A stretch of 43,451 bases of DNA, from the IMG/VR virus record IMGVR_UViG_3300028559_000074, positions 1-43,451 of that record; one strand, written 5' to 3'. This stretch comes from a virus. This document shows positions 1,807-42,959 of the stretch, piece after piece. Within the stretch, counting starts at the first letter, position 1. Each line of letters opens with the position of its first letter. The notes beneath the pieces were generated by a model, which saw only the letters and a list, made by a program, of their open reading frames with translations, made no database searches and was not told the DNA's origin. Made by a program: the position numbers and the translations under genes.

Positions 1807-3147
1807 ATGGAACAAAAATCTATAACAGAATTCCTTTCTCAAGAATATAAAGAGTTTGCTCTTTATTCTATTGAAGGTAGAGCTATTCCATCTGTGATAG
1901 ATGGTTTTAAACCAACTCAAAGGAAAATTATTCACATTGCTAATATTGTTTGGAAAAGTGGTTCTGAAAAGAATCTTAAAGTATTCCAACTATCTGGTAA
2001 GGTAGCTTCTGATGCATTTTATCATCACGGAGATATGTCTTTATCAAATGCAATTATTAATTTAGCACAGAAATTTAAAAATAATGCTCCACTTTTAGAA
2101 GAAGATGGTCAATTCGGATCTTTAAGATCACCACAAGCTGGTGCTCCACGTTATATTGGTACTAAGTTAAGTCCTAACTTTCGACTGATGTATAAAGATT
2201 TTGAATTACTTAATTATAAAGAAGAAGAAGGTGAAATAATTGAACCTAAATTCTTTCTACCTATTATTCCAACCGTTTTAATAAATGGTGGATCTGGTAT
2301 TGCCGTTGGATTTGCTTCTAATATATTAAATAGAGATGTTAAAGAGATTATAGATGTATGTGTTAAATATTTGAATGGAAAGAAAATAACTACTGTTAAA
2401 CCATCTCTAATAGGATTTACAGGAACATATACACAAGATATTGAGAATTCTAAGAAATGGTATATAAGAGGTACTCTATCTAGAGCAAACACAACAACTG
2501 TTAAAATCACAGAACTACCACCTTCAATGACATATGAAAAGTATGAAGAAATACTTGATAGATTAGTAGAGAATAAAGATATTGTATCTTATGAAGATAA
2601 TTGTAAAGACAATGTTGATTATACTTTAAAATTCACAAGAAATAGTTTAGAGACTATCGATGATGATAGATTATATAAACTTCTAAAACTAGAGGAATCT
2701 GAAACTGAAAATTTCAACACATTAGATGAAAATGGTAAATTAAAAATATTTGAAAGAGTTGAAGATATAATTAAATATTTTGTTGATTTTAGATTATCAT
2801 ACTATCAGTTGAGAAAAGACCATCAACTTGATAAAATGCAACAAGAACTTAAAGTATTAGGTAATCGTGGTAAATTTATCAAAGCCATTTTAGATGGTAA
2901 AATAGTTGTGAATAATAAAGCCAAGGATGAAATAATAACACAAATTGAATCAATTGCTATTGAAATGATAGATGGTTCATATGATTATCTTTTAAGAATG
3001 CCAATCTATTCTTTAACTAAAGAGGTGTTTGATAAATTGAAACAAGATTTCACTTCTAAGAAAGAAGAAATTGAGAAACTAAAATTGATTGATCCAAAAG
3101 ATATGTATATTGAGGATTTATCTGAACTAAAAAAGAAATTTAAATAA
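1807..3147 (+). CDS. Type II DNA topoisomerase cleavage subunit (gp52-like)
   Basis: The 446-residue product is about the length of T4 gp52. It opens with a GyrA/ParC-type winged-helix region: EGRAIPSVIDGFKPTQRK at about residues 23-40, then GDMSLSNAII at 75-84. The catalytic tyrosine is Y116 in AGAPRYIGT, preceded by the GQFGS strand (101-105), and NGGSGIAVGFASN follows. The last third is helical and charged. It should form the DNA gate and join the ATPase subunit encoded divergently at 1-390 to relax or decatenate phage DNA. The ATG follows an AT-rich stretch (tagatatataaagat) that resembles the putative phage late promoter. There is no visible damage. Confidence 0.93.
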   Translation: MEQKSITEFLSQEYKEFALYSIEGRAIPSVIDGFKPTQRKIIHIANIVWKSGSEKNLKVFQLSGKVASDAFYHHGDMSLSNAIINLAQKFKNNAPLLEEDGQFGSLRSPQAGAPRYIGTKLSPNFRLMYKDFELLNYKEEEGEIIEPKFFLPIIPTVLINGGSGIAVGFASNILNRDVKEIIDVCVKYLNGKKITTVKPSLIGFTGTYTQDIENSKKWYIRGTLSRANTTTVKITELPPSMTYEKYEEILDRLVENKDIVSYEDNCKDNVDYTLKFTRNSLETIDDDRLYKLLKLEESETENFNTLDENGKLKIFERVEDIIKYFVDFRLSYYQLRKDHQLDKMQQELKVLGNRGKFIKAILDGKIVVNNKAKDEIITQIESIAIEMIDGSYDYLLRMPIYSLTKEVFDKLKQDFTSKKEEIEKLKLIDPKDMYIEDLSELKKKFK

Positions 3148-9683: not shown

Positions 9684-9937
9684 TGAGAGTAATTGCTATA
9701 AAAGATGCACCAATCGTAGATGTTTCTGCTTGGACAAAAAAGAGTGGTTTAACACAGGCTTATAAAGTGGGAGATATATTTGAGTTGTCTAAAGAGTATT
9801 CAGATCCTAACTATCACAGAACCTATATGGTTATATTCAACCACCATATAGGTTCTTACATGGAAGTAAACTATGAAAATTTCATAACACTTGATGAACA
9901 CCGAGAGAATCAAATAAATGAATTATTATCTACATAA
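9683..9937 (+). CDS. Small SH3-like protein (84 aa) with shared C-terminal tail
   Basis: Residues 1-65 look like a small beta barrel: a strand (MRVIAIKDAPIVD), then YKVGDIFELS, TYMVIFNHHIGSYMEV, and NFITLDE. The pattern x-VG-x-x-(Y/F)-x-V/L ... NFI is shared with the 36546 gene. The tail LDEHRENQINELLST is one of the seven recurrent C-terminal tails. The gene overlaps its upstream neighbour by one base and the convergent homing endonuclease by 28 bases. Confidence 0.72.
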   Translation: MRVIAIKDAPIVDVSAWTKKSGLTQAYKVGDIFELSKEYSDPNYHRTYMVIFNHHIGSYMEVNYENFITLDEHRENQINELLST

Positions 9938-11595
9938 ATATTTAATTCGAATTTTATCTTACCACAATCCCAGATTTTGTCAACTACTATAGAGTCAACA
10001 TACTCCTTTTCTGTACAAGAATATTTTAACTTAGACTTCTTAAAATTCGACTTATGAACTCTCTTATTATTAACTACATATTTATAATCTGGTAAACTCT
10101 CATTAATATTATTAAATCCTAATTTATAATATAAATTACCAATGCTCCAATCTCTATCTGCATAACTAACTATTCTAATTGGATTGTAATTTTTTATAAA
10201 ATATTTTAGTAGTTTAGATGCTCCTCCAACTACATTTGTTTCTATTTTGTTACAAAATCTGGATAGATTCCAACCACTATCTTCCATTCTTTTACGACCT
10301 TCAAAGTTATTAAAAGTCATTACAGAAACTAATTCTTTATTATAAATAAGACCTAGTTTTAAACTACTTTGATCAACTCCTTGTATATGATTATCTTCTA
10401 AAAAATTAGAAACCGATTTTAATTGAACTACTTCACATTTTCTAGCCCATATTCTATTATCAGTTTTTCCTAACCAATTTTTAATTTGACTCTTGACTAT
10501 ATTACAATTAAAAGACCAATCATCTTCCCATATGTGTATAATTCTTATATCTTTTTCCAAAAAATACTTAGTTTTATCACTATGATAGTTTTTATCTTTC
10601 AATTTTTCAGAGTGCCAGTAAAGACCATTAAATTCAAAACCTAATTTAATTTCTGGTAGATAAATATCTATCTCTAATTTGTCTCTATAACTTTTAACTA
10701 CCTCTCCTTTATAAATTGACAAGATAAATCTATATAATTCATCTTCTTTTATAGAACGACTATCTCCAATAGGATTACAAACAGTACATAGTTTTAAGTT
10801 AGATCTTAATCTATTATGATAACTTGAACTATCTATATAAAAATAGTGGTCTAAATTATTATCACATTTAAATAGAGAGACTTTATTATCAACATATTTT
10901 ACATAATTACTATTGTTTGTTATTTTACAATCTCTTATTAAATCAGATTGCATCGGAGAATTTGATCCATATAATTCATTGTTAGTCTTTTTTATCTTCT
11001 CCCTTATAACCGGTGATGAAAGTTGAGACTCATATCCAGTTCTTTCAATATTTGTTTGTTTTACTTTATCATAAAACTCACTAACCTGTGAAGGATGTTC
11101 AACTCCATACTTATCTCTGAAAATAGATTTTATCCTTTCACTATCCATAAACGGATTTTCATATCCAAATTTATCCAAATTGGTTTTATATACTTTTTCT
11201 TTGAAGTTTATAGATTTTGAGAAATGATCAACGCCGTATTTTGCAATTGATGTTTTTTTAACCTTCTCATTTCTGTCAGGGTGTTGTGAATAATATTCAA
11301 CTCCATATTTATCTTTATTATATTCCTTTAATTTTATATGAGAACATTTGTCACAAGTATATATAGGGTATTTAACACAAGAGTTTATATTTTTATTATA
11401 TGCTTGATATTTTATATATCTCTCAACAAAACAAATATCACAACAAACATTAACTTTCAAATTACTACCATTCTGTAATTGTGTTTCAGTTTCAACTTCA
11501 ATTATATCTCGTAAGGAGATATTTTCATAAAATTCTTTATAATATTCAATATTTTTCCTAGTTATTTTAATTTTTACTTTTCTATCTAAAATCAT
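9910..11595 (-). CDS. Homing endonuclease, Hef-like, with KYG repeats
   Basis: This 561-residue protein is built from modules. Residues 1-90 have two Cys pairs (CCDICFVER and YTCDKC). Residues 95-220 hold about five repeats of the type DKYGVEHPSQ, a DNA-contacting repeat common in phage homing endonucleases. The middle has the Vsr/Hef-like core: EIDIYLPEIKLGFEFNGLYW, HSE, then IRIIHIWEDDW. The C-terminal 170 residues (VVGGASKLLKYFIKNYNP, YKLGF) look like the GNAT-like extension of this family. A palindromic AT motif precedes the ATG. Its 3' end overlaps the convergent 9683 gene by 28 bases. Confidence 0.85.
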   Translation of the reverse strand: MILDRKVKIKITRKNIEYYKEFYENISLRDIIEVETETQLQNGSNLKVNVCCDICFVERYIKYQAYNKNINSCVKYPIYTCDKCSHIKLKEYNKDKYGVEYYSQHPDRNEKVKKTSIAKYGVDHFSKSINFKEKVYKTNLDKFGYENPFMDSERIKSIFRDKYGVEHPSQVSEFYDKVKQTNIERTGYESQLSSPVIREKIKKTNNELYGSNSPMQSDLIRDCKITNNSNYVKYVDNKVSLFKCDNNLDHYFYIDSSSYHNRLRSNLKLCTVCNPIGDSRSIKEDELYRFILSIYKGEVVKSYRDKLEIDIYLPEIKLGFEFNGLYWHSEKLKDKNYHSDKTKYFLEKDIRIIHIWEDDWSFNCNIVKSQIKNWLGKTDNRIWARKCEVVQLKSVSNFLEDNHIQGVDQSSLKLGLIYNKELVSVMTFNNFEGRKRMEDSGWNLSRFCNKIETNVVGGASKLLKYFIKNYNPIRIVSYADRDWSIGNLYYKLGFNNINESLPDYKYVVNNKRVHKSNFKKSKLKYSCTEKEYVDSIVVDKIWDCGKIKFELNIYVDNNSFI

Positions 11596-13192: not shown

Positions 13193-13223
13193 AAAAAATC
13201 CCAGTTAATTACTGGGATTTTTT
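13193..13223. terminator. Bidirectional terminator hairpin
   Basis: A perfect 13-bp stem (AAAAAATCCCAGT with its complement) closes a TAATT loop and is flanked by A and T tracts on both sides. It separates the convergent 11710 and 13205 genes and overlaps the stop codon of the latter. Confidence 0.9.
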
Positions 13224-14032
13224 ATTTTATTTTGAAACAGTAAAATATCAATATTCTTTTTTGAAGAATTTAATCTTCTCTTTGTTACACAAAGGTTATC
13301 ATAATCAGAAGTTTCAATAGGACTCTTTTCTAAATAAAAACACTCTCTTATTGATATCTTATGGTCTATTGATGGATAATCACCATCATTTGAATCAAGT
13401 AGAAAATTATCTTTTATATACTCTCCATCATAAAAATCATATCCATCCCACGTTTCCAAAAATTTTGATTTTATTGATTTATAATAGTTCCAAGATACTC
13501 TATAGAATTCTTTGTATGTTGAGTATTTATCATTTGTATAGTCAATCCAATCTCCACTTTTATTTCTCTTTTCTCTAATTTTATCTCTAACTTCAACTGA
13601 TTGAAAAACATTATATACACCATACTTGTTTTTTACTATATCATCCCTCTTTTTTGAAAAGTAGGTTCCTTTACATAATACATTCTCTACACCATATCTT
13701 TCTAAACAGGTTGTTTTATTTTTTTCAGGATTTCTAAAAGTAGAAGATCCATACTTTTTCATACAGGTATCTTTTTGCTTTTGATTAACAATAGTTGATA
13801 ACTTAGCACAAGATATCGAACAAAACTTTTTCTCTTTTTTCTTGTTTAAATATCCTAAATTTAAATTTTCAAATTTAACAATGTTATCACAATTTGCACA
13901 AATATCTTCACCATCAACTTTTAAAAATTCATCATAATAGGTTTTAGATGTCATGTTTTTATGAGAATGTGATATATGAATTGATAGGTGTTTCCTATCT
14001 CTAACTTCAAATGAGCAAATTTCACAAATCAT
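13205..14032 (-). CDS. HNH-type homing endonuclease with zinc finger and KYG repeats
   Basis: The 275-residue product begins with a C2H2-like finger (CEICSFEVRDRKHLSIHISH). A second Cys cluster follows (ICANC, later FCSISC), then KYG repeats (MKKYGSSTFRN, LERYGVENV, NKYGVYNVFQSVE). The C-terminus has an HNH-like core: SIDHKISIRECF, then a spaced YDNLCVTKRRLNSSKKN. It is therefore a nuclease-plus-targeting array of the same modular type as the other homing endonucleases here. It is overlapped by a tiny zinc-finger gene upstream and shares a terminator with the metallopeptidase gene. Confidence 0.8.
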   Translation of the reverse strand: MICEICSFEVRDRKHLSIHISHSHKNMTSKTYYDEFLKVDGEDICANCDNIVKFENLNLGYLNKKKEKKFCSISCAKLSTIVNQKQKDTCMKKYGSSTFRNPEKNKTTCLERYGVENVLCKGTYFSKKRDDIVKNKYGVYNVFQSVEVRDKIREKRNKSGDWIDYTNDKYSTYKEFYRVSWNYYKSIKSKFLETWDGYDFYDGEYIKDNFLLDSNDGDYPSIDHKISIRECFYLEKSPIETSDYDNLCVTKRRLNSSKKNIDILLFQNKIKNPSN

Positions 14033-16665: not shown

Positions 16666-17529
16666 ATGAGAATATATTGGACAAAGGAAGAAGAAGATAA
16701 ATTAAGATATTATTATGAAGAGTTAGGTCTATCATTATCAGAATTATATAATTATTTCATTGAATATTATCCAAATAGGACAAAAACATCAGTTGAAGTA
16801 AAAATAAATAAGCTTAAACTTAGACATACAAAAGAACAAATATCAAATATAAAATCAAGATTGAATTCTGGAGAAGGTAATGGTATGTTTGGTAAGATTG
16901 GTCCAAATAAAGGTTTAACCAAAGAAAATTCTGAAAGAATTAGAAACTCTTCAATGAAAATATCAATTACATTAAAAAAAATGTTTGAAAATGCAGAATT
17001 AGATAGATCTGGTGATAAAAATGGTATGTATGGTAAGCAATCTTGGTCTAAAGGTAAAACAAGATATGATGATAGTAGATTAGTTGATAATTATAATAGA
17101 AAATCAATTAGTGCAAAAAATAGATGGAGTAAGTTATCTGATATTGAAAAAGATATAAGAATAGGTAATCTATCATTGGCTGCTAATAAAGCAAAAAAAG
17201 ATACAAAGATTGAGGTAATAATAAAAAATAAATTAGAAAATATGAATATAAATTTCACTAAAAATTATAGATGTGATAGATATATTTTTGATTTCTACCT
17301 AGTAGATTATAACTTTGTAATAGAATGTCAAGGTGACTATTGGCATGGTAATAGTAAATATTTCAAAATTTTAAATGAAATACAAATAAAAAATATCGAA
17401 AGGGATAAAAATAAAATAAAATATTTAGAAGAAAATAAAATAAAATCACTATTTTTGTGGGAGAATGAGATATATAAGTTTAAAGAAAACTTAGAAGAAA
17501 TAATTTTAAATAAACTAAATGAAAATTAA
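16666..17529 (+). CDS. Homing endonuclease with HTH, NUMOD3 motifs and Vsr-like nuclease
   Basis: Residues 1-60 resemble a Myb/SANT-like helix-turn-helix (YWTKEEEDKLRYYYEELGLS). Two NUMOD3-type motifs follow, GMFGKIGPNKG and GMYGKQSWSKG, which contact DNA in modular homing endonucleases. The C-terminal 100 residues hold the nuclease: YIFDFYLVDYNFVIECQGDY then WHG, with the same Asp...Glu...His spacing as in the 377 and 9910 enzymes. The gene overlaps the CCA-adding enzyme start by 11 bases and does not interrupt it, so this is an intergenic free-standing insertion. Confidence 0.83.
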   Translation: MRIYWTKEEEDKLRYYYEELGLSLSELYNYFIEYYPNRTKTSVEVKINKLKLRHTKEQISNIKSRLNSGEGNGMFGKIGPNKGLTKENSERIRNSSMKISITLKKMFENAELDRSGDKNGMYGKQSWSKGKTRYDDSRLVDNYNRKSISAKNRWSKLSDIEKDIRIGNLSLAANKAKKDTKIEVIIKNKLENMNINFTKNYRCDRYIFDFYLVDYNFVIECQGDYWHGNSKYFKILNEIQIKNIERDKNKIKYLEENKIKSLFLWENEIYKFKENLEEIILNKLNEN

Positions 17530-18673
17530 AAAATTTGATGCATTTTTAGAGAGTAAAAATGATTTGTACGATATAATTCCACAATCTATTAAGGATATAA
17601 GTATCCTTTTTAAAGAGAATGGTAAGGAGTTGTATTTAGTTGGTGGTGCTGTTAGAGACTTTATTAATAATGAAAATCCCAAGGATTTTGACTTATGTAC
17701 TAATGCAACACCTGATGAAATATTAAATATAGTCAAAGATAAATATAAAACGACTGAACAAGGTAAATCATTTGGAGTAATAGTTATATACACAAAGGAC
17801 CAACCAATGGGTATAGAAGTAGCTACATTTCGAGAAGATATGTATGATGATAAACTTGGAATAACTAGAAATCCGGAAATTAAATTTTCCACAATTGAAA
17901 AAGATGTACTTAGGCGTGATATAACATATAATTCTATGTTCTATGATTTAGAAAAAAGAAAAATAATTGATTTGGTCGGTGGTATTCAAGATATTGAAAA
18001 TAAAATGACTAGATTTGTGGGGAATCCAAATGATAGAATAACCGAGGATCCTTTACGGATTTTACGTGTTCTACGATTTTCTTGTAGGTATAATTTTGCC
18101 ATAGATTTGGATACAAAAAAATCAATTATTAAAAATAAAAATAAATTATCTATAATCTCACAAGAAAGAGTCTGGGAGGAAATGAAGAAAGCATTTAAAC
18201 AAGCAAAATCCTACAAACAATATCTTGAGTTTTTTAATGAGTTTGATATGTGGAAGGAAGTATTCCCAGGTTCTAAAATCAATACTGATATTGAAGAAGC
18301 GGATAAACTAACATCTTATATTGCTAATCTATTTAAGTTTGAAGATACTCAAAAACTTGAAAATAAGATGATACTCCAATATAAAATTGAAGGAGATATT
18401 GCTTCTAAAGTTGTGTTTCTAATAGATTTATTAAAATTGAATCCTGAGAATGCTTTTGATTTATACAAGAAGAAAGTAAGGTGTCATTGTACTTCTGCAC
18501 AAATTATAGATTGGTTGGATACTTGTGGAGTTCATAGTAAAATCTTTATTAGATTTATTGACTATGTTCCAAGTGTATCTGCTGAAGATTTGATGGCTAA
18601 AGGTTTTAAGGGTCGCGAGTTAGGAATAAAGATTAAAGAAATTGAAATAGAAAAATTCAAAGAGACTCTTTAA
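17519..18673 (+). CDS. CCA-adding enzyme / poly(A) polymerase family nucleotidyltransferase
   Basis: The 384-residue product shows the class II nucleotidyltransferase core. LVGGAVRDFI (40-49), the catalytic pair in KDFDLCT (D57, D59), LRRDITYNSMFYD and EDPLRILRVLRFSCRYNF appear in the order and spacing of bacterial CCA-adding enzymes, and the length is typical. It would add or repair CCA on tRNA 3' ends. That fits the tRNA-Leu at 22542, whose CCA is not encoded. The N-terminus MKIKKFDAFLES loosely resembles the shared capsid-targeting-like peptide. It overlaps the upstream homing endonuclease by 11 bases. Confidence 0.92.
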   Translation: MKIKKFDAFLESKNDLYDIIPQSIKDISILFKENGKELYLVGGAVRDFINNENPKDFDLCTNATPDEILNIVKDKYKTTEQGKSFGVIVIYTKDQPMGIEVATFREDMYDDKLGITRNPEIKFSTIEKDVLRRDITYNSMFYDLEKRKIIDLVGGIQDIENKMTRFVGNPNDRITEDPLRILRVLRFSCRYNFAIDLDTKKSIIKNKNKLSIISQERVWEEMKKAFKQAKSYKQYLEFFNEFDMWKEVFPGSKINTDIEEADKLTSYIANLFKFEDTQKLENKMILQYKIEGDIASKVVFLIDLLKLNPENAFDLYKKKVRCHCTSAQIIDWLDTCGVHSKIFIRFIDYVPSVSAEDLMAKGFKGRELGIKIKEIEIEKFKETL

Positions 18674-18686
18674 TAGAGTCTCTTTG
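18658..18686. terminator. Bidirectional terminator between convergent genes
   Basis: CAAAGAGACTCT, loop TTAAT and the perfect complement form a 12-bp stem. It overlaps the end of the CCA-adding gene and separates it from the convergent 18697 gene. Confidence 0.85.
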
Positions 18687-18696
18687 AAAAATAATT

Positions 18697-19338
18697 TTAT
18701 CCTTTACTTAATTTATCATACAATTTTTTGTAATCAAATGTTAAAATAACACCATCTAAATCTAAATACCTATCTTCCATATATTCTTGTGTTGATCCGT
18801 GTATTGTGGCTAACCTTTTACAATCTTCTTTAGTAATTTTTCTTAATTCTGCAGTTGAATTAGTTGGAAAATACCAATTTTTTAATGTAATAACTGCATT
18901 TTTAAGTTCTTCAAGAGATCTTGTTCGGACTTGATTAGTCATTTGTGTAGTGTTAATAAAGGTACAAATATATCCTTCTGAAATTCTACCAGCAACCGAT
19001 TGTAAAACTTCAAGTTCTAAATTAGAATTATTCATTAACATTCTTTGGCTACTCCAATTTCTTTGACTATAAGACCTTTCCAAAGTTTCACACTCTGCAT
19101 CTGCTTCTAATGTAAATTCCCAAACTGCCCATTTAGCTTTAGTTAGATCTACTCTAGTAAAATCTTCTGACCAATAGCAAGAACGATTCTCTTTTATTTT
19201 AAATCCTAAATCTAAAATATCCCAAAAAGTATCTTTTATATCATTAAAAGAATATTCAAATCCTGTGTGAATAGTTGAATCTTCATCATCATCATCATCA
19301 TCTGATTCGAAAATTCTAAAATCTCTTAAATGCTTCAT
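18697..19338 (-). CDS. Hypothetical protein (213 aa) with MKYLKxF-type N-terminus
   Basis: The frame is open from 19383, but the ATG at 19336-19338 gives MKHLRDFRIFESDDDDDDED, matching the shared N-terminal peptide with a good candidate cleavage site (IFE/S) before an acidic run. The extended start would add a hydrophobic leader that crosses an AT-rich promoter-like stretch. The rest has strand and helix features (WAVWEFTLEADAECETLERS; EGYICTFINTTQMTNQ) with no known motif. It is convergent with the CCA-adding gene and divergent from the secreted-protein pair. A packaged head protein is possible. Confidence 0.68.
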   Translation of the reverse strand: MKHLRDFRIFESDDDDDDEDSTIHTGFEYSFNDIKDTFWDILDLGFKIKENRSCYWSEDFTRVDLTKAKWAVWEFTLEADAECETLERSYSQRNWSSQRMLMNNSNLELEVLQSVAGRISEGYICTFINTTQMTNQVRTRSLEELKNAVITLKNWYFPTNSTAELRKITKEDCKRLATIHGSTQEYMEDRYLDLDGVILTFDYKKLYDKLSKG

Positions 19339-19365
19339 AAATGTATATATAAATTCTTTAATTAG

Positions 19366-19407
19366 AAAGAGATAATTTATCAATATATAATTGAAAATTA
19401 TCTCTTT
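19366..19407 (+). repeat. 13-bp inverted repeat directly before secreted-protein start
   Basis: AAAGAGATAATTT (19366-19378) and its exact complement (19395-19407) flank a 16-base loop containing AATATATAA. Six T's then lead straight into the ATG at 19411. It may be a terminator-like hairpin in the 5' leader, or operator half-sites around a promoter. Confidence 0.7.
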
Positions 19408-19410
19408 TTT

Positions 19411-19980
19411 ATGAAAAAAATACTATTATTATTATCAATTTTAATATCTTCTACCTTGTTCTCACAGACACAAGTTTGTCCAGATGTTGTTTGTATTAAT
19501 ACACAAGACCAAGACTATTTTGTTCTCACAACACCTGGATCTACATATAATTGGCAATTATCTGGTGGTGGTGTTATACAATCTGCTGAAGCTACCGATA
19601 CAGATGCTGATGGTAGGATAGAGATAATTATCGATTGGGGTGCTGTAATTGGTTCTTATACATTACAGGTTACTGAGACAAATATCAATGGGTGTGTTGG
19701 TCTTCCAGTTACTTGTCAAATTAATATTGTGAATGGTGCAAATGTTACAATAAATGCCGTTGGTCCTTTTTGTACTGGTGATCCAATTACTAATTTAGTT
19801 GGTAATCCTGCTGGTGGTGTATTCTCTGGTGTTGGTGTGGTTGGTAATACATTCAATCCATCTGCTGGCTCCCAAACTATAACATATACCTATAATGATC
19901 CTAATGGATGTTCAGGTTCAGCAACTTATAATATTGTTGTTAATCCTATACCGGTAACATCACCAATTTACAAACAATAA
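19411..19980 (+). CDS. Secreted PKD/Ig-like domain protein
   Basis: The N-terminus MKKILLLLSILISSTLFSQT is a classical signal peptide of the Bacteroidota style, with cleavage before Gln. The mature part has two Ig/PKD-like units. The first runs from PGSTYNWQLSGG to SYTLQVTE, with paired cysteines (CVGLPVTC). The second runs from CTGDPITNLVG to a CSGSATYNIVVNP ending. Such repeats are typical of Bacteroidota surface and gliding-associated proteins. No CHU_C sorting domain is present here, but the next gene has one. The first unit resembles the N-terminal domain of that neighbour. Its role in infection is unknown. Confidence 0.82.
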   Translation: MKKILLLLSILISSTLFSQTQVCPDVVCINTQDQDYFVLTTPGSTYNWQLSGGGVIQSAEATDTDADGRIEIIIDWGAVIGSYTLQVTETNINGCVGLPVTCQINIVNGANVTINAVGPFCTGDPITNLVGNPAGGVFSGVGVVGNTFNPSAGSQTITYTYNDPNGCSGSATYNIVVNPIPVTSPIYKQ

Positions 19981-19993
19981 GGATATCTATAAA

Positions 19994-20045
19994 ATCTCAT
20001 AATTATCTAGTAATATATACTATAAATACTAGAAAATTATGAGAT
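19994..20045 (+). repeat. Two-part inverted repeat covering the start codon of the T9SS-cargo gene
   Basis: Outer arms of 11 bp (19994-20004 with 20035-20045) and inner arms of 6 bp (CTAGTA 20007-20012 with TACTAG 20027-20032) pair exactly, separated by 2-base internal loops. The terminal loop contains ATATATACTATAAA. The ATG at 20039-20041 lies inside the outer 3' arm. Confidence 0.75.
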
Positions 20046-20611
20046 TGATATTTATTTTTCTATTTTTACTTTCATTCAATCTTAAAGGTCAAGTTATTAG
20101 TCTTACTAACTGTGATTCTTTAGATCGTGTTCAAACATTTTATGTTGATCTACATACTGGATCTACATATGAGTGGTCAGTTAATGGCGCGACAATTTTA
20201 AATACCAATGAGAATAAAGTAACTATTCTTTGTCCTAGTTTTGAATCTAGTTTTACTATATCAGTTATTGAGAGAAATGCTAATAATTGTCCGGGAGAAG
20301 CCAGGAAATTATTAGTAGAGATAACGCCTTGTCAGGATGAGGTTATTTGGATTCCATCCGCCTTTACTCCAAATGGTGATAACCGTAATGATATATTTAG
20401 AGTAATGGGAACTATATCATCAAAGGAATTCTCTTTACAAATCTATAATAGGTGGGGCGAATTAATTTTCGAGTCTAATGATGTTGAAGTTGGTTGGGAT
20501 GGTACTTACAAGGGTACTCTTGTTCAAGATGATATTTATACGTATAGAGTATTCTGTTTGGTTAATTCCAGATACTATTTAAAATATGGTTCAGTAACTT
20601 TGATAAGATAA
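20039..20611 (+). CDS. Secreted protein with CHU_C-type (type B) T9SS sorting domain
   Basis: The 190-residue product has a signal peptide (MRLIFIFLFLLSFNLKGQ). A PKD-like domain follows at about 25-97 (TGSTYEWSVNG...CPGEARKLLVEI). Residues 104-190 form a C-terminal domain with the CHU_C / gliding-motility signature: PSAFTPNGDNRNDIF (106-120), IYNRWGELIFES (135-146) and GWDGTYKG (152-159). In Bacteroidota this domain directs proteins through the type IX secretion system to the cell surface or outside. A phage gene with it should use the host's T9SS during infection. Neighbour 19411 is a likely partner. Confidence 0.9.
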   Translation: MRLIFIFLFLLSFNLKGQVISLTNCDSLDRVQTFYVDLHTGSTYEWSVNGATILNTNENKVTILCPSFESSFTISVIERNANNCPGEARKLLVEITPCQDEVIWIPSAFTPNGDNRNDIFRVMGTISSKEFSLQIYNRWGELIFESNDVEVGWDGTYKGTLVQDDIYTYRVFCLVNSRYYLKYGSVTLIR

Positions 20612-20641
20612 TTTTATATATATCAAAAAATTTAAATTATA

Positions 20642-21385
20642 ATGACTTATTATCTATCATATATTAAAGACACCTTGAGCAACAATTATCTAGGTATAAA
20701 AATAGAACCGGGATTGGTTGGTTCTTTTCTTGACCAATTGAAAACTGTACTTAGTGAAGAGGATTATGAAGTATATACTAAAAACCAACAAAATAGAGAT
20801 CATGGTTCACATCATATAACAGTTATTAATGTTATGGACTATAACAAATTAAGTAAAGAAATCGGAGTATCTAATTTTATTGAAAATTTAGAAGATATTT
20901 TAAAATATCCAATAGATGATATAAAGATTTTAGGACTTGGTACTGCTCAGAAGAATGAAAATCGAGCTTATTTTGTTGTTTGTCAATCTGATAAATTGGA
21001 TGCTATTCGTACTAGATTTGATTTACCTAAGCAAGACTTTCACATAACTTTAGGATTTAAATGGAAAGATGTTTTCGGTGTTAGAAAGAATGAAGTTATG
21101 AATATAAAATCTAGATTTCTTAAAGAGTTAAAACAGGAATTTTATAAAAAAGAAAATTTTAATTTTATAAAAAAAATAAAAAATTATGATTTATCTGAAG
21201 ATGTAGAGATAGTACCTATTTCTATTTCAGATGATTTTCTAAAAGTCTTATGTGATGATACTATCATGGATGTCGGATTTTCTTCTGATAAAAATGAACT
21301 TTTCATTTTCACAAAATATAAAAAATCTATCGACGTAAGTAGATTACCACTAACCGAGATATATAGAATTTTAGAAAATATTTAA
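20642..21385 (+). CDS. 2H phosphoesterase-like protein
   Basis: Two HxT motifs mark this as a likely 2H phosphoesterase: SHHITVI (H58, T60) and DFHITLGF (H134, T136), 76 residues apart and each on a predicted strand. In this fold the two histidines hydrolyse 2',3'-cyclic phosphates or cyclic oligonucleotides. T4 Acb1, which destroys CBASS signals, has the same pair, as do RNA-repair LigT/CPDase enzymes. The remaining 100 residues form a second, unrecognised domain (DVEIVPISISDDFLKVL). It follows the secreted genes by 30 bases with an AT-rich promoter-like stretch. Substrate is undetermined. Confidence 0.75.
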   Translation: MTYYLSYIKDTLSNNYLGIKIEPGLVGSFLDQLKTVLSEEDYEVYTKNQQNRDHGSHHITVINVMDYNKLSKEIGVSNFIENLEDILKYPIDDIKILGLGTAQKNENRAYFVVCQSDKLDAIRTRFDLPKQDFHITLGFKWKDVFGVRKNEVMNIKSRFLKELKQEFYKKENFNFIKKIKNYDLSEDVEIVPISISDDFLKVLCDDTIMDVGFSSDKNELFIFTKYKKSIDVSRLPLTEIYRILENI

Positions 21386-25260: not shown

Positions 25261-26016
25261 ATGACTTATTATATTCTATATGAAACAACAAATTTAGTAA
25301 ATGGTAAAAAGTATAGAGGAATACACAAAACTCTAAAATTGAATGATGGATATTTAGGAAGTGGTAAAGTACTTTTAAATGCTGTCAATAAATATGGAAA
25401 AGAAAATTTCCATAGAGAAGTTTTGGAGTTTTGTTCTTCGTATGAGGAACTTATTGAAAAAGAAAAGATATATGTAGATGAAGATTGGGTTAATGACTAT
25501 TCCAATTATAATCTAAAGACGGGTGGACAGAGTGCTGGCATTTTATCTGATGAATCAAAAAATAAAATATCTGAAACTTTAAAGAGAAGATACGAAAGTG
25601 GTGAAATTATTGCTTTTCATCCAAAAGGAACTATTCCTTGGAATAAAGGAAAATTTGGGTTATATAGCGAAGAATATAGAAAAAAAATTTCAGAATCTCT
25701 TAAGGGAAAAGAACCTTGGAACAAAGACATGAAAGGACAACAAGTGGCTTGGAATAAGGGCCTTAAATTAGGACCACAGAGTGAGGAGGAAAAAAATAAG
25801 AAATCAGAAACTCTTAAAAAAAGGTATGAAACTGAGGAACACCATTCGAAGGGTACCGAGCCTTGGAACAAAGGTAAAAAAGGTGTTCAGGTGGCTTGGA
25901 ATAAAGGAATAGAAATGGAAAAAGTAGAATGTCCTCATTGTAGTAAAAAAATAGATAAATTAAATGCCAAAAGATGGCATTTTGATAATTGTAAATTAAA
26001 ACCTTTACAAGATTAG
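25261..26016 (+). CDS. GIY-YIG homing endonuclease with NUMOD3 repeats and zinc finger
   Basis: Residues 1-95 are a GIY-YIG nuclease domain: YYILYETTNLVNGKKYRGIH at the start, the DGYLGSGK turn, NKYGKENFHREVL and a catalytic-type Glu in LIEKEKIYVDE. Four NUMOD3-like DNA-binding repeats follow (TIPWNKGKFG, EPWNKDMKG, VAWNKGLKLG, EPWNKGKKG). A C-terminal finger (CPHCSKKIDK...HFDNC) ends the protein. The layout resembles the Seg-type enzymes of T4. It is an intergenic insertion between the YkuK-like gene and 26021. A tttttatatatagtta stretch precedes the ATG. Confidence 0.88.
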   Translation: MTYYILYETTNLVNGKKYRGIHKTLKLNDGYLGSGKVLLNAVNKYGKENFHREVLEFCSSYEELIEKEKIYVDEDWVNDYSNYNLKTGGQSAGILSDESKNKISETLKRRYESGEIIAFHPKGTIPWNKGKFGLYSEEYRKKISESLKGKEPWNKDMKGQQVAWNKGLKLGPQSEEEKNKKSETLKKRYETEEHHSKGTEPWNKGKKGVQVAWNKGIEMEKVECPHCSKKIDKLNAKRWHFDNCKLKPLQD

Positions 26017-26020
26017 TCGT

Positions 26021-26407
26021 ATGTTTGAACTCAACTATATTATGTTAGAAAAAATGGGATGGGACGATGCTCGGAGAAACTTTGGTGATATAATACTATC
26101 CGGTTTTAGTGACTTTGAAAAGATAGAATATTTTGATAAATCTCGATACTACTTTTTTCCAGAGGAAAGACAAGTACTCTTTCTTTTAAAAGAAATAATT
26201 GCTTTTCCTAATCATGACCCTAAACTTAAAAAAAACAAAAAGTATAATGAATATAAATTTATTAAAGTAGATTTTTCAAAAAAGAAACCAAAATACGTAT
26301 CAAAAAGTTGTAAATCTAATATAGAATTACTATATTTGATACGTGAAAATTTAGCCTGTGATATCACATATCAAAGGCTTTTCCAAATTAACTCAATTAT
26401 AAAATGA
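26021..26407 (+). CDS. Hypothetical protein (128 aa)
   Basis: No family is recognised. The first 60 residues are helical and aromatic (MGWDDARRNFGDIILSGFSD, SRYYFFPEERQVLFLL). A basic middle follows (KLKKNKKYNEYKFIKVDFSK), then a helical end. There is no transmembrane segment and no visible active site. Its stop overlaps the start of the DUF151 gene (ATGA at 26404), so the two are probably translationally coupled. Confidence 0.66.
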   Translation: MFELNYIMLEKMGWDDARRNFGDIILSGFSDFEKIEYFDKSRYYFFPEERQVLFLLKEIIAFPNHDPKLKKNKKYNEYKFIKVDFSKKKPKYVSKSCKSNIELLYLIRENLACDITYQRLFQINSIIK

Positions 26408-30177: not shown

Positions 30178-30205
30178 AAAAATGGAGGCTTAGGCCTCCA
30201 TTTTT
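30178..30205. terminator. Bidirectional terminator
   Basis: AAAAATGGAGGC, loop TTAG and GCCTCCATTTTT form a perfect 12-bp stem between the convergent 29279 and 30190 genes. Confidence 0.9.
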
Positions 30206-31176
30206 ATTTTATTATATATCTTTTCTTTTTTTAATATTTTAAATCCTTTACTCTCAAGCGTATTCATTAATCTATCAAAATTAATATTTATATCATTTTC
30301 TTTGAAGAATTTTTTAACTTCACTTCTTCCTATAAAAATATAGATTTTACCATCCGGTGACTCTATCTCATATTGGCATAAATTTTTGTTTAATTTACCA
30401 ACATTATTTATCTTTTGTTCTTCGGACCAACTCATATCTCTATATTCATTATCTTTACTATGTAGTTTATATCCTTTAGATCCATTCTTATAAAGTATTG
30501 AATCGCTGCTTATTTTAAACCTGCTTTTGAGACCTAATTTATTATTCAAATCTTTAAAATAAATTGAAACCTGTTTAGTTCCTCTAAAAGATAGAATATC
30601 ACCCTCAGGATTTTCTATTTTATAGACGATTGACATTGTTTCTTTAATTTTTTCAATTTGTTCTTTACTTTTACTTACTCCTTTATTAACATGTGTATTT
30701 TTGCTATAGTATTCCTTCAGTGAGTTACTAGTTCTGATAGCCTTCTCTTCACTTCTACTTATCTTTTGAAATATAGTAGATTTTTTCAATGAGTCTGATA
30801 ACTTCTTTCTCATTTCATCTGTATAAGTAATATTTTTCTCAAACTCACCATCACATAAATTAACCAATGGACCTTCCTTTTTATCTTTTCTACCAATTGC
30901 TTTAATCATTTGTCCTTCTAATTTAAAAGCTTCAACCTCACTCATATTTTCAAAATATTTTAATATAATAGGTTTTAAACCAATCGATAATATCGATCTT
31001 ATTTTATTTAATTTAGGAGTATTTCTAATTGAAACACTTTCATATAAGTGCATCTTATATCTTTCTCCAGAACCCTTACCTATATAAAATGGTTCAAAAT
31101 TAAATTCATATTCTCCAAAAATAAAACTACCAGGTTTTCTAGGATCTAAATAGACATATACATAATAAACATTCAT
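30190..31176 (-). CDS. GIY-YIG homing endonuclease (328 aa)
   Basis: The N-terminus has a GIY-YIG-type core: YYVYVYLDPRKPGSF, then FYIGKGSGERYKMHL, NTPKLNKIRSIL and the Glu of EAFKLEGQMIKAIG. Basic NUMOD-like segments (MRKKLSDSLKKSTIFQK; SKEQIEKIKETM) follow. Two similar modules near the C-terminus, IENPEGDILSFRGTKQVS and IESPDGKIYIFIGRSEVKKF, are likely DNA-binding repeats. It is an intergenic insertion convergent with the synthetase-like gene. TTTTAATATATAG lies just upstream of its ATG on the minus strand. Confidence 0.82.
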   Translation of the reverse strand: MNVYYVYVYLDPRKPGSFIFGEYEFNFEPFYIGKGSGERYKMHLYESVSIRNTPKLNKIRSILSIGLKPIILKYFENMSEVEAFKLEGQMIKAIGRKDKKEGPLVNLCDGEFEKNITYTDEMRKKLSDSLKKSTIFQKISRSEEKAIRTSNSLKEYYSKNTHVNKGVSKSKEQIEKIKETMSIVYKIENPEGDILSFRGTKQVSIYFKDLNNKLGLKSRFKISSDSILYKNGSKGYKLHSKDNEYRDMSWSEEQKINNVGKLNKNLCQYEIESPDGKIYIFIGRSEVKKFFKENDININFDRLMNTLESKGFKILKKEKIYNKIKMEA

Positions 31177-41896: not shown

Positions 41897-42058
41897 ATGA
41901 AAGCTAAAGAAGTTATGAAAAAGTTTGATATATCAAGAAATACTTTATCAAACTGGGTTAAAAGGGGTTATATTAAATTTGAAAAGACACTTTCTGGTCG
42001 ATATATCTATATAATCGAAGAAAATAAAGATATTGATGATAATAGACAAGGAAGTTGA
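41897..42058 (+). CDS. MerR-like HTH micro-protein (53 aa) upstream of homing endonuclease
   Basis: A 53-codon frame encodes a MerR/excisionase-like helix-turn-helix: MKAKEVMKKFDISRNTLSNW, then VKRGYIKFEKTLSGRYIY, the classic helix-turn-helix followed by a wing. It overlaps the start of the homing-endonuclease gene at 42036 by 23 bases. Excisionase-like HTHs commonly bind DNA near mobile elements. It could be the targeting partner or regulator of the nuclease, or a split part of it. Confidence 0.72.
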   Translation: MKAKEVMKKFDISRNTLSNWVKRGYIKFEKTLSGRYIYIIEENKDIDDNRQGS

Positions 42059-42959
42059 TATCAGGATAGGTAATAAGGAACAACTAGAACATTATTCTAA
42101 ACTTGGATATCAACCAGAATGGAAAAAAATAATTATAGTAAAAGTTGATCATCTTATGTTAAAAAGTAATGTGAAACTTAGTGTTAAGTGTGATGTTTGT
42201 GAAATTGAAAAGACGCTGGTTTATTCAAAATATACCAAAAATACTAAAAATCTAACAGAAGATTATTGTTGCTCTAATAGATGTGCCATGACTAAACAAG
42301 AAAATACTTGCTTAGAAAAATATGGATTTAATTATCCTGCACAGAATAAGGATATCTATGTTAAAGTGTCAAAATCATGTTTAGATAAATATGGGGTCGA
42401 CCACTATTCAAAAACTGAAGAATATAAAGATAGATATAAAAAAACTTGTCTTGAAAAATACGGAGTTGATAGTTCAAATAAGAGTGTTGAGGTGAAGAAT
42501 AAAATTAGATTATCAATGATTAAAACTTGCGGATTTGAACACGCTCTTCAAAATAGAACAATATTTAGCAATCAACAAAAATCTTCATTTAAAATACTTA
42601 TGTATAAAAATACAAATTTGACTTATCAAGGTTCTTATGAAAAATATTTTTTAGAATTAATGGAGAATAAGGGACTATTGAATGATATATCAAATGGTAA
42701 ATCTTATAATTATAAATTTGATAACAAAGTTAGAGCATACCATTCAGATTTTCTATTTAATAATATAACAATTGAGATAAAATCATCTTGGACATATAAT
42801 AGAAATGATAAAGATAATTTATTAGAATTGAAAAATGAAACAAGATGGCAAACTGTCCGTGACATGGGTGATGACATAATTATTTTAAAATCAAAAGAAG
42901 AAATTAAAAACTATGTAGATAATATAGTATATAATATAAAAATAAATGAAATACAATGA
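42036..42959 (+). CDS. Homing endonuclease with KYG repeats and IEIKSS-type nuclease domain (307 aa)
   Basis: The ATG at 42036 follows an in-frame TTG at 42033. The N-terminus (MIIDKEVDIRI...SNVKLSVKCDVCEIEK) is homologous to that of the 9910 enzyme (MILDRKVKIKI...SNLKVNVCCDIC). A second Cys cluster (YCCSNRC) and KYG repeats (EKYGFNYPAQ, DKYGVDHYSK, EKYGVDSSNK) follow. The C-terminal nuclease differs: AYHSDFLFNNITIEIKSSWT, with the Asp and Glu-x-Lys of a PD-(D/E)xK site. It therefore pairs a shared targeting module with a different cutting domain. Its stop overlaps the next ATG. Confidence 0.82.
   Translation: MIIDKEVDIRIGNKEQLEHYSKLGYQPEWKKIIIVKVDHLMLKSNVKLSVKCDVCEIEKTLVYSKYTKNTKNLTEDYCCSNRCAMTKQENTCLEKYGFNYPAQNKDIYVKVSKSCLDKYGVDHYSKTEEYKDRYKKTCLEKYGVDSSNKSVEVKNKIRLSMIKTCGFEHALQNRTIFSNQQKSSFKILMYKNTNLTYQGSYEKYFLELMENKGLLNDISNGKSYNYKFDNKVRAYHSDFLFNNITIEIKSSWTYNRNDKDNLLELKNETRWQTVRDMGDDIIILKSKEEIKNYVDNIVYNIKINEIQ

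Follow-up and report, generated by a model that had tools for sequence, protein, structure and literature searches.

The window analysed here, a stretch of 43,451 nucleotides (positions 1 to 43,451 of the IMG/VR virus record IMGVR_UViG_3300028559_000074), carries genes B and C of a predicted phage operon for surface proteins, A-B-C, of which gene A is absent. The product of gene C is a phage-encoded protein with the well-supported signals of a type B cargo of the type IX secretion system (T9SS), and we predict that it is exported. The two- or three-gene unit is apparently widespread and apparently undescribed in the literature; it suggests that T9SS use is common to many Bacteroidota phages and not an isolated oddity, and it constitutes a compact gene unit with clear predictions. 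Our preferred reading, held tentatively and at somewhat less than an even chance, is that the host T9SS and a host shuttle export C together with B (and A) to the surface of the infected cell, with superinfection exclusion or the masking of receptors as the most likely purpose.

Gene C and its predicted type B sorting domain

Gene C and its parts are located in the window as follows:

20039–20611, plus strand: gene C (P0001), 190 aa, ATG start, with signal peptide, Ig/PKD-like domain, and T9SS type B sorting domain
20039–20089, plus strand: signal peptide of C, residues 1–17, with Gln at +1 (sequence; Q-rule)
20090–20326, plus strand: Ig/PKD-like domain of C, residues 18–96 (AlphaFold2 model strands; fold comparison)
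20333–20608, plus strand: type B sorting domain of C, residues 99–190 (profile matches; alignment A4; structure alignment)

The initial annotation had described the 190-residue product as a signal peptide followed by a PKD-like domain and a CHU_C-type sorting domain. Profile hidden Markov model searches bear out the sorting domain, which was matched above cut-off by both PF13585 (CHU_C; 63.2 bits, E 2.6e-17, cut-off 27) and TIGR04131 (T9SS type B sorting domain; 62.3 bits, cut-off 35, residues 105–176). The domain is located at the extreme C-terminus, with the final residues, ...GSVTLIR, found likewise in relatives, and P0001 retains the residues that are invariant in the phage C family (alignment A4, 32 sequences). 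Among PDB sequences, C is matched best by the CHU_C terminus of GhpA, the grappling-hook protein of Aureispira (E 3.6e-7). The signal peptide is upheld as well: MRLIFIFLFLLSFNLKG|Q (cleavage LKG|Q) obeys the Bacteroidetes Q-rule, whereby signal peptidase I exposes an N-terminal Gln (PMC5837995, PMC10653852), and Q18 is nearly invariant across the family alignment. When all ORFs of the window were scanned with a simple signal-peptide rule (hydrophobic core, early K/R, small residue followed by Q), used without SignalP, two passed, namely C and its upstream neighbour at 19411–19980.

For the PKD-like domain, the outcome is mixed. The AlphaFold2 model of C (mean pLDDT 87.7, pTM 0.57) does contain an Ig-like sandwich at about residues 18–96, followed by a second beta domain at residues 99–190, but the Pfam PKD_6 match remains below threshold (14.3 bits, cut-off 25). 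In fold comparisons, the N-terminal domain resembles PKD-type and Ig folds (Z 6.7–7.7), and the C-terminal domain aligns with the T9SS domains of PorZ (Z 8.1), PorU (7.8), and RgpB (6.6), with FN3-like domains of streptococcal proteases scoring equal or higher, up to Z 10. No enzyme domain was found in C by the Pfam search, the SprB-repeat profile PF13573 matched neither P0001 nor P0002, the product of gene B, and the type A sorting domain TIGR04183 had no match in the window.

Gene B and the local arrangement

The features of gene B and of the two gene starts are the following:

19411–19980, plus strand: gene B (P0002), 189 aa, with signal peptide (residues 1–18, then Gln) and two Ig-like domains, without a sorting domain
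19960–19977, plus strand: C-terminal tail of B, SPIYKQ, a variant of the P-I-x-H-N tail (alignment A5)
19366–19407, no strand assigned: hairpin immediately ahead of the start codon of B, where the flanking genes diverge (sequence; z -4.95)
19993–20046, plus strand: strong hairpin between B and C (-20.5 kcal/mol, z -5.4), with the C start codon in the 3' arm

Gene C had originally been presented as a lone cargo gene. The gene itself is real, but it forms an operon with B, and usually with A as well, and the adjacent B with its own signal peptide had been missed. In the window, B and C are adjacent on one strand, with B upstream, and B matches its family in alignment A5 (29 sequences); the structure model of B has a pLDDT of 87.3. 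The tail of the window B is without the His, and the identical letters are present in locus L220, which carries a full A-B-C operon. No tail-bearing A gene was found in the window, where the gene upstream of B (18697–19350) is on the other strand and no further ORF passes the signal-peptide scan. We rejected the possibility that B and C are one gene split by a frameshift, because both products start with a signal peptide and many phages have the two as separate genes. Both hairpins are among the strongest of the 58 gene starts in the window. A candidate T4-type late promoter, TATAAATA at 20021–20028, was discarded, since 14 such motifs were found in the window and 14.1 are expected by chance.

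An operon with a shared C-terminal tail in other phages

A scan with P0001 alone as the query gave no close relatives. The search for homologues in other phages, which had been proposed along with the lone-gene reading, was carried out in IMG/VR with a phage sorting-domain profile and proved productive, yielding 321 relatives from a single degenerate pattern, of which the best 80 were fetched; the IMG/VR sets represent these best 80 matches, and many of the records are fragments. The ORFs among the best 80 of the 321 relatives fall mostly into two length classes, of about 184–204 aa and 660–824 aa, and among 5'-complete ORFs, 39 of 78 from phages versus 2 of 58 from the best bacterial matches are no longer than 210 aa. 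Directly upstream of the distinct short C genes from the best 80 of 321, gene B is present in 30 cases out of 31, and the junction between the two genes in phages is usually a stop/start overlap or a gap of 0–2 nt. A second IMG/VR scan, seeded with a reduced B alignment, retrieved 62 distinct stand-alone B genes, which are followed directly by C in all 59 testable cases and preceded by a tail-bearing A in 61 of 62. Q-rule signal peptides were recognized in 38/39 C and 37/38 B proteins of the phage loci from the first scan. Signal peptides are present in both A and B, and no sorting domain was found in either.

The C-termini of A and B have in common a short tail of the form I-x-H-[N/D/Y/F]. 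The tail was detected in 32 of the 38 B proteins and 20 of the 22 cluster-4 A proteins of the first scan and, with a slightly wider pattern, in all 62 B proteins of the B-seeded scan. Of 471 other neighbour ORFs, 12 have such an ending (11 being A-type genes of these operons and the remaining one a truncated B). The tail is common to unrelated A families. A and B of the same operon have tails that are alike beyond expectation (p 5e-5 for 20 phage operons and p 0.026 for 9 bacterial operons), although these values are only indicative because the operons are related to one another. We dropped the idea that the tail is phage-specific once tails of this kind turned up in bacterial operons.

Single-chain forms and the virion alternative

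The long phage proteins (660–824 aa) hold B and C back to back, with B at columns 416–577 and C at columns 579–748 of the long profile. These fused forms carry large conserved N-terminal domains, and their N-terminal part showed no match to the commonest A; SprB repeats (PF13573) are present only in the fused relative L260. Since the fused gene and the operon adjoin the same neighbour families, the two probably do the same job. Fusion of two genes is usually taken to mean that their products cooperate; on this reasoning B and C would act together in one place, as would A by extension.

In one marine lineage, the fused gene is located between the tail sheath/tube genes and the tail terminator/baseplate hub genes (the terminator match being weak). 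This position inside a tail module is compatible with the proteins being tail or capsid decorations, with the signal peptide and sorting domain as relics or otherwise used. We consider such a virion role very unlikely. The initial annotation had raised a tail fibre found only in virions as the finding that would contradict its interpretation; at the sequence level, C has no PHROG match, and its signal peptide speaks against its being a virion part put together in the cytoplasm. Furthermore, the neighbours of C in the window are not structural genes, and the signal peptide and sorting domain are retained together in highly divergent phages.

Bacterial counterparts

Searches for B in bacterial genomes recovered mostly domains inside long proteins, plus complete operons. 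On a 3-Mb contig of a Cryomorphaceae MAG, three consecutive genes encode an A of 460 aa ending in ...PIFHYN, a B of 227 aa ending in ...AIFHYQ, and a C of 345 aa with a CHU_C domain. At E 1e-10, 23 of the 196 genomes of the same order contain B-like genes, roughly a dozen of which stand alone, and the B-like regions read in that order have the same kind of operon. Judging from these sequences, which for the bacterial operons come largely from MAGs, the A-B-C architecture is common to phages and bacteria. The operons of this architecture lie in some Flavobacteriales chromosomes (L315 6794–9907 and L340–L347), where signal-peptide proteins with an I-x-H tail lie beside a CHU_C gene, as in phages; unlike the phage operons, they are chromosomal, among apparent housekeeping genes, and encode a C of about 340–350 aa.

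The similar operon in bacterial chromosomes is compatible with phages having captured host genes of little function to them, as is the sorting-domain tree (108 columns, poorly resolved), in which the phage rows cluster without forming one clade. However, 62 distinct phage B loci retain the operon together with its tail and signals, which argues for selection in phages, and we regard such capture as the least probable of the explanations considered. The same tree provides no support for a single acquisition of the sorting domain by phages.

Predicted export and possible roles

Type B substrates cross the outer membrane via the T9SS and are collected and apparently anchored by PorP/SprF-like shuttles (PMC9143113, PMC12618676), with orphan type B substrates using an unlinked shuttle (PMC12618676). 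No PorP/SprF gene was found in 18 phage records, compared with 5–15 in each of five bacterial control genomes, and the phage would therefore need host shuttles. From the signal peptides, sorting domain, operon, tail, fusion, and shared neighbour genes described above, we infer a route that covers export, co-transport of A and B, shuttle use, and biological role. The products of A, B, and C would all enter the Sec pathway, after which the sorting domain of C would lead to translocation by the host T9SS and anchoring on the infected cell by a host PorP/SprF-like shuttle. B (and A, where present) would reach the surface in complex with C, perhaps docked via the short C-terminal tail; joint delivery of B and C is supported by the fused single-chain versions in other phages. 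The surface assembly would then mask or displace T9SS-exported host adhesins or receptors, resulting in superinfection exclusion or in the protection of progeny virions from readsorption. We favour masking or displacement since adhesins exported by the T9SS may act as receptors for phages and since gliding-gene mutations confer phage resistance (PMC13288928). If the operon does block receptors, it would represent a superinfection exclusion route specific to Bacteroidota. Blocking of superinfection and altered gliding or adhesion, both put forward in the initial annotation, are possible as putative roles.

We know of no precedent for the export of proteins without a sorting domain, as proposed for A and B, which may remain in the periplasm instead. 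If they are carried by C, the T9SS would move complexes and not just proteins with their own sorting domain. In an extended version of this idea, the operon would encode a multi-subunit T9SS cargo of Bacteroidota phages and some of their hosts, with A and B travelling with C via the docking tail and the variable surface structure controlling superinfection. We rate this version as rather improbable; if true, it would be new in two respects, as a strategy of phages and as a mode of T9SS transport.

A different possibility is that the phage proteins occupy the host T9SS or the PorP/SprF-like shuttle and lower the display of host adhesins (possible receptors), in which case the displayed content would matter little. 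Four relatives consist of only a signal peptide and a type B sorting domain, with about 90 residues in the mature form:

L019, 9512–9859 (W01 597508–597858): cargo-less relative
L022 (W02 498837–499217): cargo-less relative
L087 (G014 254936–255271): cargo-less relative
L090 (G023 25999–26376): cargo-less relative

These four cargo-less proteins fit competition better than masking and make it a serious rival. In Flavobacterium johnsoniae, the endogenous level of the shuttle is low, and type B fusions require additional shuttle when overproduced (PMC12618676), which also speaks for competition. Nevertheless, neither a conserved B and tail nor a variable A would be needed for it, and the fused forms devote large conserved domains to their N-terminal part; we judge competition to be unlikely as the main role. 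Alternatively, the complex could be a phage-encoded adhesin, causing infected cells to stick, aggregate, or glide differently and thereby aiding phage spread. The SprB repeats in a fused form and the main domain, which differs among A families, point in this direction, but we give an adhesin role a low probability. Export of C with B (and A) for receptor masking or superinfection exclusion remains our preferred reading.

Relation to described systems

T9SS type B substrates of Bacteroidota (SprB; the orphans Fjoh_1123, Fjoh_1720, and Fjoh_4934; and PG1035) have, like C, a Sec signal peptide and a C-terminal CHU_C/TIGR04131 domain, and the orphan substrates, again like C, have no shuttle gene alongside (PMC12618676, PMC9143113). 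In contrast to these proteins, C is phage-encoded, very small, and linked to B and A, which are without a sorting domain. The sprC-sprD-sprB-sprF gliding operon of F. johnsoniae encodes a type B adhesin together with further envelope genes, an arrangement comparable to that of the phage operon; SprB repeats recur in the fused phage form, whereas the phages are without sprF.

The initial annotation stated that no phage system built on T9SS export had been described. This has to be corrected, because three type A T9SS cargo genes were described in Cryophage in 2020 (Bellas et al. 2020, PMC7468147), so that phage T9SS cargo as such is already known and the statement is partly wrong; the type B A-B-C unit appears new. 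The Cryophage genes resemble C in being phage genes with a T9SS sorting domain for which use of the host system was proposed, and superinfection exclusion is mentioned. They differ in that the type A domain is attached to endoglucanase, GH39, and PA14 proteins, and the portion of the source available describes no A-B-C operon or tail; the window C, for its part, has neither a type A domain nor an enzyme domain. As far as searches of the openly licensed PMC literature reach, the new elements comprise a conserved A-B-C unit whose protein C is of type B, the covarying tail common to A and B, the fusion as an alternative form, and the spread of these genes among huge phages and others. Phages of Porphyromonas gingivalis, as here, encode Q-rule proteins suited to the Bacteroidota signal peptidase, and these were proposed to modify the host outer membrane (PMC10367356); unlike the present reading, that paper makes no mention of the T9SS.

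Phage affiliation and genomic setting

The window fits a Mahaphage-type huge phage of Bacteroidota. Its topoisomerase subunit (1807–3147) shares 76% and 74% identity with those of LR756502 and LR745206, phage genomes of 642 and 635 kb, respectively, the sizes of which are consistent with that clade and which we take to be genomes from the study of Al-Shayeb et al. 2020. For Mahaphage genomes (>634 kb), replication in Bacteroidetes was predicted in every case, and the same study reported phage proteins with a predicted location at the membrane or on the cell surface (Al-Shayeb et al. 2020, PMC7162821). In the two relatives, LR756502 and LR745206, type B domains occur at three and four places, and a type B domain match was obtained in 8 of the 37 IMG/VR records related by topoisomerase, 7 of these being over the cut-off. 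Type A domains (TIGR04183) were detected in 9 of the 15 records tested, and their positions in related huge phages include W01 325937, W02 298450, W03 338067, W04 36883, W05 654254, G013 19390, and G028 298865. At some of the loci, the gene just upstream of the A-B-C operon encodes a protein whose C-terminus is type A-like.

The region of the window between the CCA/polyA polymerase and 2H phosphoesterase genes (17519–21385) is a variable slot, in which related phages have different genes or none. Orthology by position in this slot was rejected, as W01 has a cargo-less CHU_C gene there and the others have unrelated genes or none. In the related phage contigs G020 and G029 (L122, L123), a 349-aa ORF divides the CCA/polyA polymerase homologue into two parts, much as a mobile element would. 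Seven ORFs of the window resemble mobile endonucleases, three on the plus strand (16666–17529, 25261–26016, and 42033–42959) and four on the minus strand (377–1648, 9910–11595, 13205–14032, and 30190–31176). They include a GIY-YIG type (30190–31176), a NUMOD3-like match (25261–26016), a Vsr-like match (16666–17529), and three DUF7487 proteins (starting at 9910, 13205, and 42033) that are similar to one another.
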